From Bacteroidota bacterium (lineage in GTDB: Bacteria > Bacteroidota > Bacteroidia > Cytophagales > Cyclobacteriaceae): a stretch of DNA of 64,000 bases. Position 1 is the stretch's first letter. Each line of letters starts with the position of its first letter. The DNA lies in the NCBI GenBank assembly GCA_018267135.1, contig JAFDZA010000026.1, positions 62,001 to 126,000 on the forward strand, read 5' to 3'. The translations under genes were made by a program, and so were the position numbers. The notes under the pieces are model-generated. The model saw only the letters and a list, made by a program, of their open reading frames with translations. It ran no database searches and was not told the origin of the DNA. Below, in pieces: positions 33,500 through 39,450 of the stretch.

Positions 33500-35899
33500 A
33501 TGAACAGAACCATTAAAAAAGTAGCCGTACTCGGCTCGGGCATTATGGGCTCGCGCATTGCCTGTCATTTTGCCAACATCGGCTGCGAAGTGCTTTTGCT
33601 CGATATCGCTCCCAAAGAACTGACAGACGATGAGAAGAAAAAAAATCTGACGCTCGATCATCCCGCTGTAAAAAATAGAATCGTAACCGGTGCTTTGGAG
33701 GCAACGCTGAAAGCCAACCCGGCCTCTCTCTTCACTAAAAAATTCGCTTCGCGCATCCGGCTCGGCAATTTTACAGACGATATGCCCAAAATAAAATCGT
33801 GCGACTGGACTATTGAAGTAGTGGTGGAAAATCTGGATATCAAAAGAAAAGTGTATGAAGAAGTTGAAAAATACAGAACCCGGGGCACGCTCATTACCTC
33901 TAACACTTCGGGTATTCCTATCCATTTAATGGCCGAAGGAAGAAGCGATGATTTTCAAAAACATTTTGCCGGCACACACTTCTTTAATCCGCCTCGGTAC
34001 TTAAAGCTCCTCGAAATTATTCCTACTGCAAAGACCGATTCCGAAATCACCCAATTCTTGTTGCACTATGGTGATCTTTTTCTGGGTAAAACCACAGTGC
34101 TCTGCAAAGATACACCCGCCTTTATTGGCAATCGGGTAGGCGTTTGGGGTTTGCTGAAAGTAATCGACTCCATGAAAAAATTTGATTTGAATGTAGATGA
34201 AATTGATAAGCTTACCGGCCCCGTTATTGGCCGGCCCAAGTCGGCTACCTTCAGAACGTCTGACGTAGTGGGGCTGGATACCCTCGTAAAAGTGGCCAAT
34301 AATTTATATGCCGGGTTGCCCAATGATGAAGGCCGTGAAATGTTCAAGTTACCTGAAGTAGTGGCGAAGCTCGATCAAAACAAATGGCTTGGCGACAAAA
34401 CCGGTCAGGGATTTTATAAGAAATCAAAAGATGCGAAGGGTCAAACCGAAATTCTTACCCTTGATCTTAAAACATTAGAATATAAACCGAAAACGAAAGT
34501 AAAATTCGCCACACTTGAAACCACCAAGACGATTGATAATTTAAAAGATCGCCTCAAAGTTTTGCTTAGCGGAAAAGATAAGGCCGGAGATTTTTATCGC
34601 GATTGTTTTTTTGGATTGTTTCAATATGTAAGTAACCGCATTCCCGAAATCAGCGATGAGCTTTTCAGGATTGATGATGCCGTATGCGGAGGGTTCGGTT
34701 GGGGGCTCGGCCCGTTTGAAACCTGGGATGCCGTAGGTGTAGAGAAAAGTCTTCCGTTGATGGAAGCTGCCGGCTATAAGCCCGCTCCATGGGTTTATGA
34801 TATGATTGCCTCGGGCAATAAATCATTTTACAAAAGCGAAGGCGGTCAGAAAAAATATTACGACATTCCTTCAAAATCATACAAAGGAATCTCTGGTAAG
34901 GAATCATTGATCATCCTTGAAAACAAAAACGAAAACATCGTTTGGAAAAATACCGATTCTAAAATCATTGACTTAGGCGATGGGGTGCTGAATTTTTCGT
35001 GGCACAGCAAAAGTTATACGCTGGGCAGTGCCGTGATAGAAGGAATGAATAAAGCCCTCGACTTAGCCGAGAAAAATTATCGTGGATTAGTAATTGGGCA
35101 TCAAGGTGCAGATTTTTCTCTCGGTGCGAATTTGGGTTTAGTTTTTATGTACGCCATCGAGCAAGACTACGATGAAATAGATTTTATGATTCGGGCTTTT
35201 CAAAATACGGTTATGCGTATTCGCTATTCTTCCGTTCCGGTGGCGGTGTGTCCGCAAGGCCGCACGCTGGGAGGTGGTTGCGAAATGACACTGCATGCCG
35301 ATATAGCACAAGCTGCAGCCGAAACCTACATTGGTTTGGTAGAGGTTGGTGTTGGGCTTATCCCCGGTGGCGGTGGCACCAAAGAATTCACCAAACGTGT
35401 GAGCGATGCCTTGCAAGAAGGCGATGTAGAATTAAATGCGTTGCAGAATGCATTTATGAATATTGCTACGGCAAAAGTAGCCACCTCGGCAGAAGAAGCA
35501 CGAGAGATGGGCATCTTAAAAAAAGTAGATCGTATTTCAATCAATCGCGACCGCCAGCTGGCCGATGCCAAAGAAGCGGTAATCGAATTGGCCGATGCCG
35601 GTTATACTATGAAGCCCGCGGTTAAGAATATAAAAGTGCAAGGCCGCACCGGGCAGGCATTGTTCTTAGCGGGTCTGCAAGGCATGCGTATGGGAAATTA
35701 TATTTCCGATCACGATGTTAAGGTAGCGAAGTGGATTGCCAATGTAATGTGCGGTGGCGATTTAACTTCACCTCAAGAAGTGAGTGAACAATATTTATTA
35801 GATCTCGAACGCGAAGCCTTCTTGTCATTAACAGGAGAGAAGAAAACATTGGAAAGAATACAAGCAATATTAACTGGAGGAAAACCATTGAGAAATTAA
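33500..35899 (+). CDS. fadN: 3-hydroxyacyl-CoA dehydrogenase/enoyl-CoA hydratase fusion
   Basis: A 799-residue bifunctional beta-oxidation enzyme in the FadN order: NAD-binding 3-hydroxyacyl-CoA dehydrogenase first (VLGSGIMGSRIACHFA at residues 9-24, HFFNPPRYLKLLEI, CKDTPAFIGNRVG), then the crotonase-fold enoyl-CoA hydratase (GADFSLGANL oxyanion-type segment, GGGCEMTLHAD and GLVEVGVGLIPGGGG with the two glutamates). It hydrates enoyl-CoA and oxidises the product to 3-ketoacyl-CoA. The ATG at 33500 is chosen over 33416, since the longer form adds residues unlike the family. fadA follows after a repeat-filled gap. Confidence 0.93.
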   Translation: MNRTIKKVAVLGSGIMGSRIACHFANIGCEVLLLDIAPKELTDDEKKKNLTLDHPAVKNRIVTGALEATLKANPASLFTKKFASRIRLGNFTDDMPKIKSCDWTIEVVVENLDIKRKVYEEVEKYRTRGTLITSNTSGIPIHLMAEGRSDDFQKHFAGTHFFNPPRYLKLLEIIPTAKTDSEITQFLLHYGDLFLGKTTVLCKDTPAFIGNRVGVWGLLKVIDSMKKFDLNVDEIDKLTGPVIGRPKSATFRTSDVVGLDTLVKVANNLYAGLPNDEGREMFKLPEVVAKLDQNKWLGDKTGQGFYKKSKDAKGQTEILTLDLKTLEYKPKTKVKFATLETTKTIDNLKDRLKVLLSGKDKAGDFYRDCFFGLFQYVSNRIPEISDELFRIDDAVCGGFGWGLGPFETWDAVGVEKSLPLMEAAGYKPAPWVYDMIASGNKSFYKSEGGQKKYYDIPSKSYKGISGKESLIILENKNENIVWKNTDSKIIDLGDGVLNFSWHSKSYTLGSAVIEGMNKALDLAEKNYRGLVIGHQGADFSLGANLGLVFMYAIEQDYDEIDFMIRAFQNTVMRIRYSSVPVAVCPQGRTLGGGCEMTLHADIAQAAAETYIGLVEVGVGLIPGGGGTKEFTKRVSDALQEGDVELNALQNAFMNIATAKVATSAEEAREMGILKKVDRISINRDRQLADAKEAVIELADAGYTMKPAVKNIKVQGRTGQALFLAGLQGMRMGNYISDHDVKVAKWIANVMCGGDLTSPQEVSEQYLLDLEREAFLSLTGEKKTLERIQAILTGGKPLRN

Positions 35900-35903
35900 A
35901 ATC

Positions 35904-35982
35904 AGACGTAAGTAGTAAGACACAAGTATCAAGAATGAAATTGAACCATGTCTTACGTCTTATGTCATAATTCTTGATACTA
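35904..35982. repeat. Heptanucleotide repeat hairpin between fadN and fadA
   Basis: The left arm is made of in-phase 7-base units ACGTAAG, TAGTAAG, ACACAAG, TATCAAG (35906-35933). The right arm holds their reverse complements CTTACGT, CTTATGT, CATAATT, CTTGATA (35952-35979). The two arms can pair in several registers around a short centre. There is no gene inside. It belongs to the same family as the repeats at 37170, 37551 and 39396. Confidence 0.85.
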
Positions 35983-35993
35983 AAAAGAAAATT

Positions 35994-37169
35994 ATGGACG
36001 CATACATCGTAGCAGGATTTAGAACAGGCGTGGGCAAAGCAAAAAAAGGAGGCTTTCGCTTCGTTCGTCCGGATGATTTGGCATCGGATGTCATTAAACA
36101 TCTCGTGAAATCTATTCCGGGTTTGGAAAACAAAATGGTTGATGATCTTTTTGTGGGCAATGCCGTGCCTGAGGCAGAACAAGGCATGCAGATGGGAAGA
36201 ATGATTTCGCTCTTAGCCCTCGGCATTGATAACCCTGGCTTAATCGTAAACCGCTATTGCGGCTCCGGCATCGAAACCATCGCCATGGCTTGTCAGCGCA
36301 TCCACGCAAAACAAGCCGAGGTGATTATTGCAGGCGGAACTGAGTCAATGTCGCTTGTTCCTACCATGGGAATCAAGACCGCATTGAATTATATGATCGC
36401 CAAAGATAACCCTACTTATTATACCAGCATGGGGTTGACAGCTGAGGAGGTTTCAAAACAATATAAAATCACGCGCGTAGAGCAAGATCAGTTTTCGTAC
36501 GAATCGCACATGAAGGCAACGGCCGCATGGAAGGCAGGAAAATTCAAAGACGAGATTGTTCCCATCACCGTTAAAGAAGTTTATGTAGACGAGAACATGA
36601 AAAAGAAAACACGCGAACATGTGGTAGAAACCGATGAGGGTGTTCGCCCGGATACCACAATCGAAGGGTTAGCAAAATTGAAACCTGTTTTTGCCATGAA
36701 TGGAACCGTAACCGCAGGCAATTCATCACAAACTTCTGACGGAGCTGCCTTCGTAGCCGTCATGTCAGAACAGATGGTGAAGCAACTAAACCTGAAACCC
36801 ATCGCACGCATGGTAAGCTATGCCACCGCGGGTGTAGATCCGCGCATTATGGGCATTGGCCCGATAGCTGCTGTTCCAAAAGCTTTGAAGAATGCCAATA
36901 TGAAATTGAACAGCATTGACTTGATCGAACTCAACGAAGCCTTTGCTGCGCAGTCGTTGGCCGTGATAAAGGAATTAGACATGGATAGAAAAAAACTGAA
37001 CGTAAATGGCGGAGCCATTGCCGTGGGGCACGCCCTCGGTTCTACTGGCGCACGTTTATCGGTTCAAATGTTTAATGAATTGAGAAGACAAAAGAAAAAG
37101 TACGGAATGGTAACCGCGTGCGTAGGCGGAGGGCAAGGCGTGGCAGGGATTTATGAGCTACTGAATTAG
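35994..37169 (+). CDS. fadA: Acetyl-CoA acyltransferase (3-ketoacyl-CoA thiolase)
   Basis: A 391-residue thiolase that cleaves 3-ketoacyl-CoA with CoA in the last step of beta-oxidation. The nucleophile is Cys89 in NRYCGSGIE (a variant of the common NRxCSSG), the active-site histidine is near 346 in AVGHALGSTGAR, and the second cysteine is Cys376 in CVGGGQG. The length is standard. It is the second enzyme of the fad cluster, flanked on both sides by heptanucleotide repeats, one set starting directly after its TAG stop. Confidence 0.94.
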   Translation: MDAYIVAGFRTGVGKAKKGGFRFVRPDDLASDVIKHLVKSIPGLENKMVDDLFVGNAVPEAEQGMQMGRMISLLALGIDNPGLIVNRYCGSGIETIAMACQRIHAKQAEVIIAGGTESMSLVPTMGIKTALNYMIAKDNPTYYTSMGLTAEEVSKQYKITRVEQDQFSYESHMKATAAWKAGKFKDEIVPITVKEVYVDENMKKKTREHVVETDEGVRPDTTIEGLAKLKPVFAMNGTVTAGNSSQTSDGAAFVAVMSEQMVKQLNLKPIARMVSYATAGVDPRIMGIGPIAAVPKALKNANMKLNSIDLIELNEAFAAQSLAVIKELDMDRKKLNVNGGAIAVGHALGSTGARLSVQMFNELRRQKKKYGMVTACVGGGQGVAGIYELLN

Positions 37170-37190
37170 ACACAAGACTTAAGTAGTAAG
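37170..37190 (+). repeat. Heptanucleotide repeats, left flank of the four-helix gene
   Basis: Three units ACACAAG, ACTTAAG, TAGTAAG follow immediately after the fadA stop and lead into the next start codon (ACTGA-ATG). Confidence 0.85.
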
Positions 37191-37195
37191 ACTGA

Positions 37196-37561
37196 ATGCA
37201 TAATTTCAAGGAGTTGAAGGTTTGGCAATTGTCTCGAAATCTCGTAAAAGAGATTCATGAGATAACTTCCAATTTCCCGCTAGCCGAGAAATATGGACTC
37301 GTGTCCCAACTGCGGAGAGGCGCTGTTTCTGTTCCCGCAAATATTGCTGAGGGGTCAGGTCGAAACACTGATAAAGATTTCGCGCAATTCCTGAATATAA
37401 GTCTCGGGTCAGCTTATGAATTGGAAACCTTGCTTATTCTCGGTTTTGATGTTCAGCTAATTACTGAAGAGCAAATAGAAAGACTTTCAAATAGGATTTC
37501 AGAAATACAAAAAATGACTTTTGGCTTGATCCAGACGTTACGCCAAGAGTCTTATGTCTAA
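37196..37561 (+). CDS. Four-helix bundle protein (S23/IVP-like)
   Basis: A 121-residue protein of the four-helix-bundle family named after ORFs in 23S rRNA intervening sequences and related to the Avd accessory protein of diversity-generating retroelements. It has the family pattern LKVWQLSRNL, SQLRRGAVSVPANIAEGSGR and SLGSAYELETLL. Function is unknown. It is wedged between fadA and fadE, flanked by 7-base repeats, and its last four codons and stop are themselves part of the right-hand repeat. This suggests the gene and repeats arrived together as one small element. Confidence 0.9.
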   Translation: MHNFKELKVWQLSRNLVKEIHEITSNFPLAEKYGLVSQLRRGAVSVPANIAEGSGRNTDKDFAQFLNISLGSAYELETLLILGFDVQLITEEQIERLSNRISEIQKMTFGLIQTLRQESYV

Positions 37562-37583
37562 CGTCTTGATACTTATGTCTTAA
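37551..37583 (-). repeat. Heptanucleotide repeats, right flank of the four-helix gene
   Basis: On the plus strand the units are CTTATGT, CTAACGT, CTTGATA, CTTATGT, CTTAA, the inverted form of the left-flank units (ACATAAG, TATCAAG, ACGTTAG). They overlap the end of the four-helix gene by 11 bases and stop 8 bases before the fadE ATG. Confidence 0.85.
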
Positions 37584-37591
37584 AAAAGATT

Positions 37592-39394
37592 ATGGCAACA
37601 GCAGTAGAAACCAAAAACACCATTAAAGGGGGCGAGTTCCTCATTAAAGAAACACGCGCACAGGCTATTTTCATTCCTGAAGAATTTAACGAAGAGCAAC
37701 GCATGATTAAGCAGCAGTGCGAAGACTTTCTAGCCAAAGAAGTAACGCCCCGGCTTAACGACATTGACTCAATGAAAGACCCCAAAATTATGCCGTCTAT
37801 TTTAGACAAGGCCGGAGAACTGGGGCTGCTCGGCACATCCGTGCCACAGGAACTGGGCGGGTTTGGTATGGATTTTAACACCACCATGCTGGTGGCCGAA
37901 GTAATTGGTGCCGGCCACTCGGTAGCCGTAGCGCTCTCAGCCCACACCGGCATTGGCACGCTGCCCATTTTGTACTATGGCAACGATACACAAAAGAAAA
38001 AATACATTCCCAAACTGGCTACAGGCGAATGGAAAGCATCGTATTGCCTGACCGAACCCGATTCTGGCTCGGATGCCAACAGCGGAAAAACCAAAGCTGT
38101 ATTAACGGCCGATGGAAAACACTACCTCATTAACGGACAAAAGATGTGGATTACCAATGGGGGATTTGCCGATGTGTTTGTCGTGTTTGCCAAAATAGAC
38201 AACGACAAAAACCTCAGCGCTTTTATTGTAGAAAAAACATTTGGCGGCATTACCATGAACGAAGAAGAAAAGAAGATGGGCATTAAAGGTTCTTCTACGC
38301 GGCAAATCTTTTTTAACGATTGCAAAGTGCCGGTCGAGAATTTACTGAGCGAGCGGGAAAACGGATTTAAGATTGCGGTAAATATTTTAAATATCGGGCG
38401 CATCAAGTTAGGGATTGCCGCCATTGGCGGATCGAAAGCAACCGTAAGCCAGGCTGTAAAATATGCCAAAGAACGCAAACAGTTTGGCGTTCCATTGGCC
38501 ACATTCGGGGCCATCAAACATAAACTGGCTGAAATGACTACCAAAATTTTTGCCAGCGAGTCGGCCCACTATCGCGCCTCACAAAATATAGACGACACCT
38601 ATCAGGCCTTAATTGCCACCGGCCTGAATTCGGCCAAAGCCCGGTTAAAATCACTGGAAGAATTTGCCATTGAGTGTGCCATCTTAAAAGTACATGGCTC
38701 GGAAGTGTTAGATTATGTAACCGATGAGGGCGTGCAGATATACGGAGGGATGGGCTTCTCAGCCGAAGGCCCGATGGACCGCGCCTATCGCGATGCACGC
38801 ATCAACCGCATCTTTGAAGGCACCAACGAAATAAACCGCCTGCTCACCATCGATATGCTGATGAAGCGCGCCATGAAGGGTTCTTTAGATCTGATGACAC
38901 CCGCCATGGCCGTGCAAAAGGAACTGATGTCTATTCCTGATTTTGGCGCCAGCGAGGAAGAAGGTCTTTTTGTGAAAGAGAAAAAAGTACTGGCCAACCT
39001 GAAAAAAGCCGGGCTCGTAATAGCCGGGGCGGCCGTGCAAAAATTTATGATGAAACTCTCAGAAGAACAGGAAGTGATTATGAGCCTGGCCGATATGCTC
39101 ATCGAAATTTATGTGGCCGAGTCGGTGCTGCTGCGGGTAGAAAAGCTTATTAGTAAACAGGGAGAAAAGGAGTGCGAAATACAAAAAGAAATGGCCCTGG
39201 TGTACCTGCACGAAGCCGTAGAAAAAACCGCCTACTCGGGCAAGCAGGCCGTCTATGCCTTTGCCGCAGGCGATGAACTCCGGCTGATGATGCTCGGCCT
39301 GAAACGCTTTACCAAAATAGAGCCTTATAATTTAAAAGAAGCCAGACGGAAAATTGCCAACTACATTATAGAAAAAGGCGCCTATCCGTTTTAA
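37592..39394 (+). CDS. fadE: Acyl-CoA dehydrogenase (FadE/VLCAD-like)
   Basis: A 600-residue FAD-dependent acyl-CoA dehydrogenase, longer than the 380-residue short type and similar to very-long-chain/ACAD9 enzymes with an extra C-terminal helical domain. It shows CLTEPDSGSDAN and KMWITNGGFADVF (flavin and substrate regions), QFGVPLATFGAIKHKL, and the catalytic-base segment RIFEGTNEINR. It makes the trans-2-enoyl-CoA used by FadN. It is the last enzyme of the cluster, followed by 7-base repeats and a terminator. ATG start at 37592. Confidence 0.94.
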   Translation: MATAVETKNTIKGGEFLIKETRAQAIFIPEEFNEEQRMIKQQCEDFLAKEVTPRLNDIDSMKDPKIMPSILDKAGELGLLGTSVPQELGGFGMDFNTTMLVAEVIGAGHSVAVALSAHTGIGTLPILYYGNDTQKKKYIPKLATGEWKASYCLTEPDSGSDANSGKTKAVLTADGKHYLINGQKMWITNGGFADVFVVFAKIDNDKNLSAFIVEKTFGGITMNEEEKKMGIKGSSTRQIFFNDCKVPVENLLSERENGFKIAVNILNIGRIKLGIAAIGGSKATVSQAVKYAKERKQFGVPLATFGAIKHKLAEMTTKIFASESAHYRASQNIDDTYQALIATGLNSAKARLKSLEEFAIECAILKVHGSEVLDYVTDEGVQIYGGMGFSAEGPMDRAYRDARINRIFEGTNEINRLLTIDMLMKRAMKGSLDLMTPAMAVQKELMSIPDFGASEEEGLFVKEKKVLANLKKAGLVIAGAAVQKFMMKLSEEQEVIMSLADMLIEIYVAESVLLRVEKLISKQGEKECEIQKEMALVYLHEAVEKTAYSGKQAVYAFAAGDELRLMMLGLKRFTKIEPYNLKEARRKIANYIIEKGAYPF

Positions 39395-39395
39395 G

Positions 39396-39423
39396 ACACA
39401 AGACTTTAGACACAAGTAGTAAG
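39396..39423 (+). repeat. Heptanucleotide repeats after fadE
   Basis: Units ACACAAG, ACTTTAG, ACACAAG, TAGTAAG begin one base after the fadE stop, in the same orientation as the copies behind fadN and fadA. There is no matching right arm, so it is a solo end. Confidence 0.85.
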
Positions 39424-39426
39424 ACA

Positions 39427-39450
39427 AGCCCGAAGATTTCGGGCTTTTTT
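39427..39450 (+). terminator. Rho-independent terminator of the fad cluster
   Basis: Perfect 8-pair stem AGCCCGAA / TTCGGGCT with a GAT loop, followed by a run of T. Confidence 0.88.

Follow-up and report, generated by a model that had tools for sequence, protein, structure and literature searches.

The small gene between fadA and fadE in the window (the whole 64,000-nucleotide stretch of DNA analysed here), together with the two repeat arms that enclose it, is probably a single insertion element of about 420 nt, selfish, mobile and served by its own S23 protein, and as such a protein-gene counterpart of the intervening sequences (IVSs) of 23S rRNA. In relatives, elements of this kind measure 420–490 nt. 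Each sits between two genes on one strand, with S23 in the same orientation, and fills the gap from the stop codon of the first gene to within a few bases of the start codon of the second. That stop codon tends to serve as one of the units of the repeat array. Near relatives have the same junction without an insert, and one and the same junction has been entered by dissimilar S23 elements that differ in repeat wording. The mode of movement we infer, having seen no movement directly.

The host genome is 3.4 Mb in size and Cyclobacteriaceae-like. Its beta-oxidation operon runs on the plus strand in the order fadN, fadA, S23 gene, fadE. The open reading frames are those of a fadN-like 3-hydroxyacyl-CoA dehydrogenase upstream (33500–35899, stop TAA at 35897–35899), the fadA thiolase (35994–37169, stop TAG at 37167–37169), the S23 protein of 121 amino acids (37196–37561) and a fadE-like acyl-CoA dehydrogenase downstream (37592–39394), the last 84% identical in relative L004. 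The name fadN follows an earlier, sequence-only reading of this DNA; used as a query, fadN found the same operon in 78 relatives. That reading had also placed an S23/IVP-like four-helix-bundle gene inside a repeat frame, and profile searches bear it out: the protein scores 136.5 bits against PF05635 (23S_rRNA_IVP; cut-off 33.8; residues 5–108 on profile positions 1–104) and 127.3 bits against TIGR02436 (cut-off 24). S23 relatives with solved structures are 2gsc and 2rld; a solved relative is, as we take it, a ring of five four-helix bundles, and we know of no catalytic activity in S23. Residues P28, E31, Q38, S45, N49, E52 and E75 are invariant, and comparison with L004 shows purifying selection on the gene (dN 0.136, dS saturated). 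The window's genome has a second S23 gene (L003 1501–1854, G000:C9:114932), situated in an efflux operon between genes that apparently encode the membrane-fusion protein and the RND pump. Its flanks carry about two short AATTAAG units per side, as in a minimal or worn element.

Both arms are on the plus strand and consist of 7-nt units. The left arm, TAGACAC AAGACTT AAGTAGT AAGAC (37167–37193), takes the fadA stop codon into its first unit; the earlier description of this flank as ACACAAG-ACTTAAG-TAGTAAG began the frame 3 bases too late. The right arm (37549–37582) is made of inverted units, TCTTATG TCTAACG TCTTGAT ACTTATG TCTTA, and includes the S23 stop TAA (37559–37561) with the preceding three codons, where four had been proposed. 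The outer arms pair with each other in the minimum-free-energy RNA fold of 37165–37595 (z −3.1). Considered without relatives, the window's arms agree at 16 of 19 aligned positions (score 13), which is no more than swapped or shuffled arms reach, and mirrored unit order is not significant in them (p 0.31); only the strong inversion seen in relatives makes their inverted arrangement secure.

For that comparison 80 relatives were fetched, giving 75 usable loci. In Bacteroidota the arm pair of a locus scores 21.5 on average, against 13.5 for arms swapped between loci and 11.5 for shuffled arms; the corresponding values in other phyla (Proteobacteria, Planctomycetes, Acidobacteria, Nitrospirota, Cyanobacteria and others) are 20.4, 11.1 and 10.1. 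Control genes from the same loci average 11.9 and 10.9, respectively, and S23 arms exceed the controls' 95th percentile at 30 of 50 Bacteroidota loci and 20 of 25 others, so that the flanks first noticed in the window recur around other genes of this type. Strong periods in the S23 flanks are 7 (and 14) only, in all groups, with a lag-7 match of 0.44–0.47 on both sides compared with about 0.27 at other lags. The wording of the units varies by locus (TTAGACA, GTATCAA, TCAGTGG, AGCTTTC, TAGGCAG, GTGAGTA, TAGGGTG and more), while the two arms of one locus use common wording. Variant units follow one another in mirrored order in the two arms at 27 of 71 loci (p < 0.05 each; combined p 1e-22). Adhaeribacter soli carries two S23 elements with differing words (L011, L026), so wording is a property of the element and not of the genome.

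The boundaries follow the same rule across loci. In the locus average, the upstream coding sequence has no period-7 signal; the signal sets in with the stop codon and dies away about 5 bases short of the next start codon. Register between stop codon and units is seen in Bacteroidota (1.59 versus 0.89 of 3, p 2e-5) and in other phyla (1.35 versus 0.74, p 0.03). In the window's family, fadN stops with TAG at 16 of 21 S23-filled but only 2 of 27 short gaps (p 1.6e-6), and fadA at 14 of 19 versus 6 of 17 (p 0.04). Neighbouring genes are co-directional with each other at 48 of 49 Bacteroidota loci, and S23 points the same way as fadA in all 41 family matches; the 15 of 23 counted outside Bacteroidota is a lower bound, because calling neighbours from ORFs overlooked the real ones at certain GC-rich loci (L061, L077). 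These orientation counts do not fit a DNA transposon or MITE, which would be found in either orientation and with target-site duplications.

Within the window's family we read 70 fad loci. The fadN–fadA gap is short in 27, S23-filled in 21 (of 65 scorable), long without S23 in 17 and not scorable in 5; for the fadA–fadE gap the counts are 17, 19, 18 and 16. Both gaps are filled in ten genomes, and in L091, whose FadA is 86% identical, they measure 12 and 27 nt and have no arms. The gene is thus not conserved in place, and the earlier idea of filled and empty forms of one element is supported by these relatives in amended form: a truly empty site is a short gap without arms, and the gene-less hairpin is a third state. 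L154 is an element caught losing its gene, with a decayed S23 start, MHNFKDL, between intact heptad arms in a fadN–fadA gap of 240 nt. Stop codons or frameshifts were also seen in further S23 genes of the family (L111, L122, L152 and more).

Occupancy turns over as well. The window and L004 share 86% identity in FadA and 82% in S23; in four other relatives with equally similar FadA (85–87%), the S23 protein in the same gap is only 42–53% identical and the arms use other words. Mapped on a tree of 86 S23 proteins, the labels for site require 20 changes (shuffled mean 40), which points to vertical descent at a site combined with repeated re-entry, and at least three distinct S23 lineages with good support occur at the fadA–fadE site alone.

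These data bear on the view that gene and arms form a host-serving regulatory cassette, kept because it is useful, in which S23 binds the arms in mRNA and tunes processing or translation between cistrons by autoregulation or RNase III cutting. The purifying selection on S23, its constant orientation along the operon and the predicted pairing of the outer arms all suit such a role, and RNase III does cut the stem of the rRNA IVS (PMC4990558). Arms kept for RNA pairing, however, should have more G-U than A-C mismatches, and the data show no such preference (97 and 101, p 0.83). Selection on an RNA stem was rejected as the cause of the arms on this ground; they resemble DNA ends that are kept alike by copying or recognition. 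The RNA fold, proposed earlier as a check, does pair the arms, which nevertheless show no sign of upkeep as a stem. Presence is also erratic among close relatives, and dissimilar S23 genes and words replace one another at one site. We consider a regulatory cassette unlikely, though the most serious competitor to a selfish element.

Two further genera show the empty site directly. At the nuoC–nuoD junction of Rhizobium, 25 of 30 loci are empty (16–18 nt) and five are filled (483–487 nt). In each filled allele the stop codon is TAG and keeps register with TAGGCAN units. Three of these alleles have empty relatives (NuoD 97–99% identical) in which the stop is TGA, but L233 has an empty sister that stops with TAG as well, so replacement of the stop is clear only for part of the alleles. 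Five changes, at least four of them on well-supported branches, are needed to place the filled alleles on a tree of the flanking genes. In Brevundimonas, a conserved gene pair overlaps by stop and start as TGATG in 20 of 30 loci, the empty junction, and nine of the 30 have S23 elements at exactly this point. They fall into three wording sets (GTGAGTA, GTGATTA and GTGGCGA), with S23 proteins of the second and third sets 54–57% identical to those of the first. No target duplication was seen at the TGATG junction beyond a shared A. One further locus, L240, has a 367-nt insert at the same junction with no S23 match and no obvious heptad arms.

The words of the window's arms also occur without a gene. 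As the sequence-only reading had noted, the fadN–fadA gap (35900–35993) shares words with the fadA–fadE arms and has no gene between its own (about 35903–35930 and 35947–35990); this hairpin is predicted to fold at −24.3 kcal/mol (z −4.95). The three-unit pattern AAGACNYAAGWNNYAAG is commoner than expected by chance, with six matches in the 3.4 Mb genome, three of them in the fad operon, and none for its reversed control. Two further matches are gene-less hairpins elsewhere in the genome (L085 935–1010 on C22, z −5.75; L086 930–1020 on C28, z −3.98), which use the window's words, have little or no loop and lie between co-directional neighbours. After fadE there is an uninverted single arm, TAAGACA CAAGACT TTAGACA CAAGTAG TAAGAC (39392–39424, plus strand), that begins in the fadE stop codon and leads directly into an intrinsic-terminator-like hairpin, AGCCCGAAGATTTCGGGCT, followed by a T run (39427–39450, plus strand) and recovered by RNA folding too.

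Gene-less hairpins in the same operons and genome are what one would expect if there were no autonomous element at all, that is, if heptads arose by slippage after stop codons and S23 entered and left by homologous recombination between repeats or relatives. The counts of heptad gaps in S23-free and S23-bearing genomes, 3/13 and 18/66, favour neither view; word sharing is slightly greater between the two fad gaps within a genome than between gaps of different genomes (0.14 versus 0.09, p 0.03). In Rhizobium, element identity (80–94%) runs roughly parallel to host identity (85–93%), so much of the patchiness could reflect old insertion and exchange with empty relatives. Slippage, though, yields direct rather than inverted arrays and leaves the mirrored order of units unexplained. 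Nor does this account sit well with S23 as the constant cargo across phyla, or with insertion into a TGATG overlap that has no repeats, and we rate it as rather improbable.

The mobile, S23-served element that we prefer would live on its host's operon transcript. Read from that transcript, S23 needs no promoter of its own, and with stop and start left intact an insertion is nearly harmless. The S23 protein may bind the heptad arms and, as a factor encoded by the element itself, insert or maintain it. The arms would be mainly DNA ends, copied or matched for each element, with any role as an RNA stem secondary, and the gene-less hairpins may be decayed or non-autonomous forms. That the stop codon is itself an array unit suggests that new wording is seeded there, and the fixed orientation would fit either a strand-specific insertion step or strong selection. 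Against mobility stand the lack of any known transposase, recombinase or reverse transcriptase in the element, the partial clustering of S23 genes by site on the tree and the weak inversion of the window's own arms. Across the 78 genomes, S23 is present in 68, with 369 copies in all and 0–14 per genome. Spread by phages or plasmids was rejected: S23 matches occur in none of 50,697 phage records, and just 29 of 72,556 plasmids, mainly from cyanobacteria, have one.

The fixed orientation would also be explained, and the strict boundaries would agree, if S23, as a relative of Avd, the accessory protein of diversity-generating retroelements, guided a reverse transcriptase in copying the element into junctions. 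S23 and Avd/bAvd belong to the same four-helix-bundle fold class and show distant sequence similarity, although the matches to the bAvd and DivGenRetAVD profiles (1e-4 and 2e-6) are weak and score below the NCBIfam and Pfam cut-offs. PF00078 reverse transcriptases are absent from the window's genome and from 28 of the 47 genomes that have at least four S23 genes, and S23 number is unrelated to PF00078 presence across 78 genomes (p 0.79). We rejected reverse transcriptase dependence, and a retroelement-like origin is very improbable. An ordinary small gene with coincidental short repeats, or an assembly artefact, is suggested only by the lack of significance of the window's arms taken alone, and is refuted by the same anatomy in dozens of independent assemblies from many phyla and by empty sites in two genera.

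It is conceivable, and we offer it as a tentative extension, that these elements form a cross-phylum class of mobile DNA that targets stop/start junctions, builds inverted 7-nt arms seeded at the stop and uses S23 as its mover, with no transposase, recombinase or reverse transcriptase, and of which the rRNA IVS is one branch. The function of S23 and the spread of rRNA IVSs are long-standing questions, and earlier work on S23 dealt mainly with the rRNA copies, for which it is uncertain that protein is produced at all. The present elements add a large set of S23 genes that lie in mRNAs and are kept by purifying selection, and close relatives differ in whether a junction is filled or empty, which makes both function and mobility testable in ordinary laboratory species. 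The stop-to-start rule lets a passenger enter central-metabolism operons such as nuo and fad, and S23 elements may account for part of the unexplained intergenic heptamer repeats of bacteria.

Several repeat systems resemble the window's element in part. Like REP/REPIN–RAYT systems, it includes short inverted-repeat hairpins scattered between genes, but there is no shared REP sequence, and dependence on a Y1 transposase (PF01797) was rejected, since genomes with 11–13 S23 genes lack Y1 and S23 number shows no significant relation to it (p 0.10). One family genome, G013, has 28 Y1 matches, most with identical scores, apparently a recent burst unrelated to its two S23 copies. TAACTGA heptamer arrays, reported from Beggiatoaceae, cyanobacteria and Bacteroidetes (MacGregor 2015, PMC4679880), are likewise tandem 7-nt intergenic units in partly the same phyla, but they are direct, precede start codons, keep to one word and have no S23. 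The heptamers GGGAATC of Xanthomonas and GGGGAYT of Nostoc (Rehm et al. 2015, PMC4692102) are 7-nt units too, lying between co-directional ORFs, mostly within 50 bp of a stop codon, with 70–75 inverted pairs per Xanthomonas genome. They differ in being one fixed G-rich word per genome, discussed as a quadruplex, and the text of that paper mentions neither 23S nor XCC0516. Xanthomonas campestris has both 70 inverted GGGAATC pairs and the solved S23 protein XCC0516 (2gsc). In the literature covered, which took in few subscription journals, we found nothing that ties heptamer repeats to S23 or IVSs.

The closest likeness is to the S23-type IVSs known from Coxiella, Leptospira and Brucella, which occupy helix 9, 25 or 45 of 23S rRNA. 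The window's element lies between fadA and fadE, not inside a 23S rRNA gene, and no rRNA was found around 20 other S23 loci; elements of its type run from stop to start between protein genes rather than in an rRNA helix. They differ further in their locus-specific wording, the stop codon within the array, several copies per genome and the unsupported selection on an RNA stem. The resemblance that the sequence-only reading had drawn nevertheless stands. In both, an ORF of the same family (PF05635) is bounded by inverted complementary arms, which in the window pair in the predicted fold but are weak on their own, and which are strong in relatives; both have a sporadic distribution and similar lengths, 428–444 nt in Coxiella; and both have 7-nt repeats in the 5′ arm, in Coxiella as GACAGAT heptamers directly upstream of the S23 ORF (PMC4990558).
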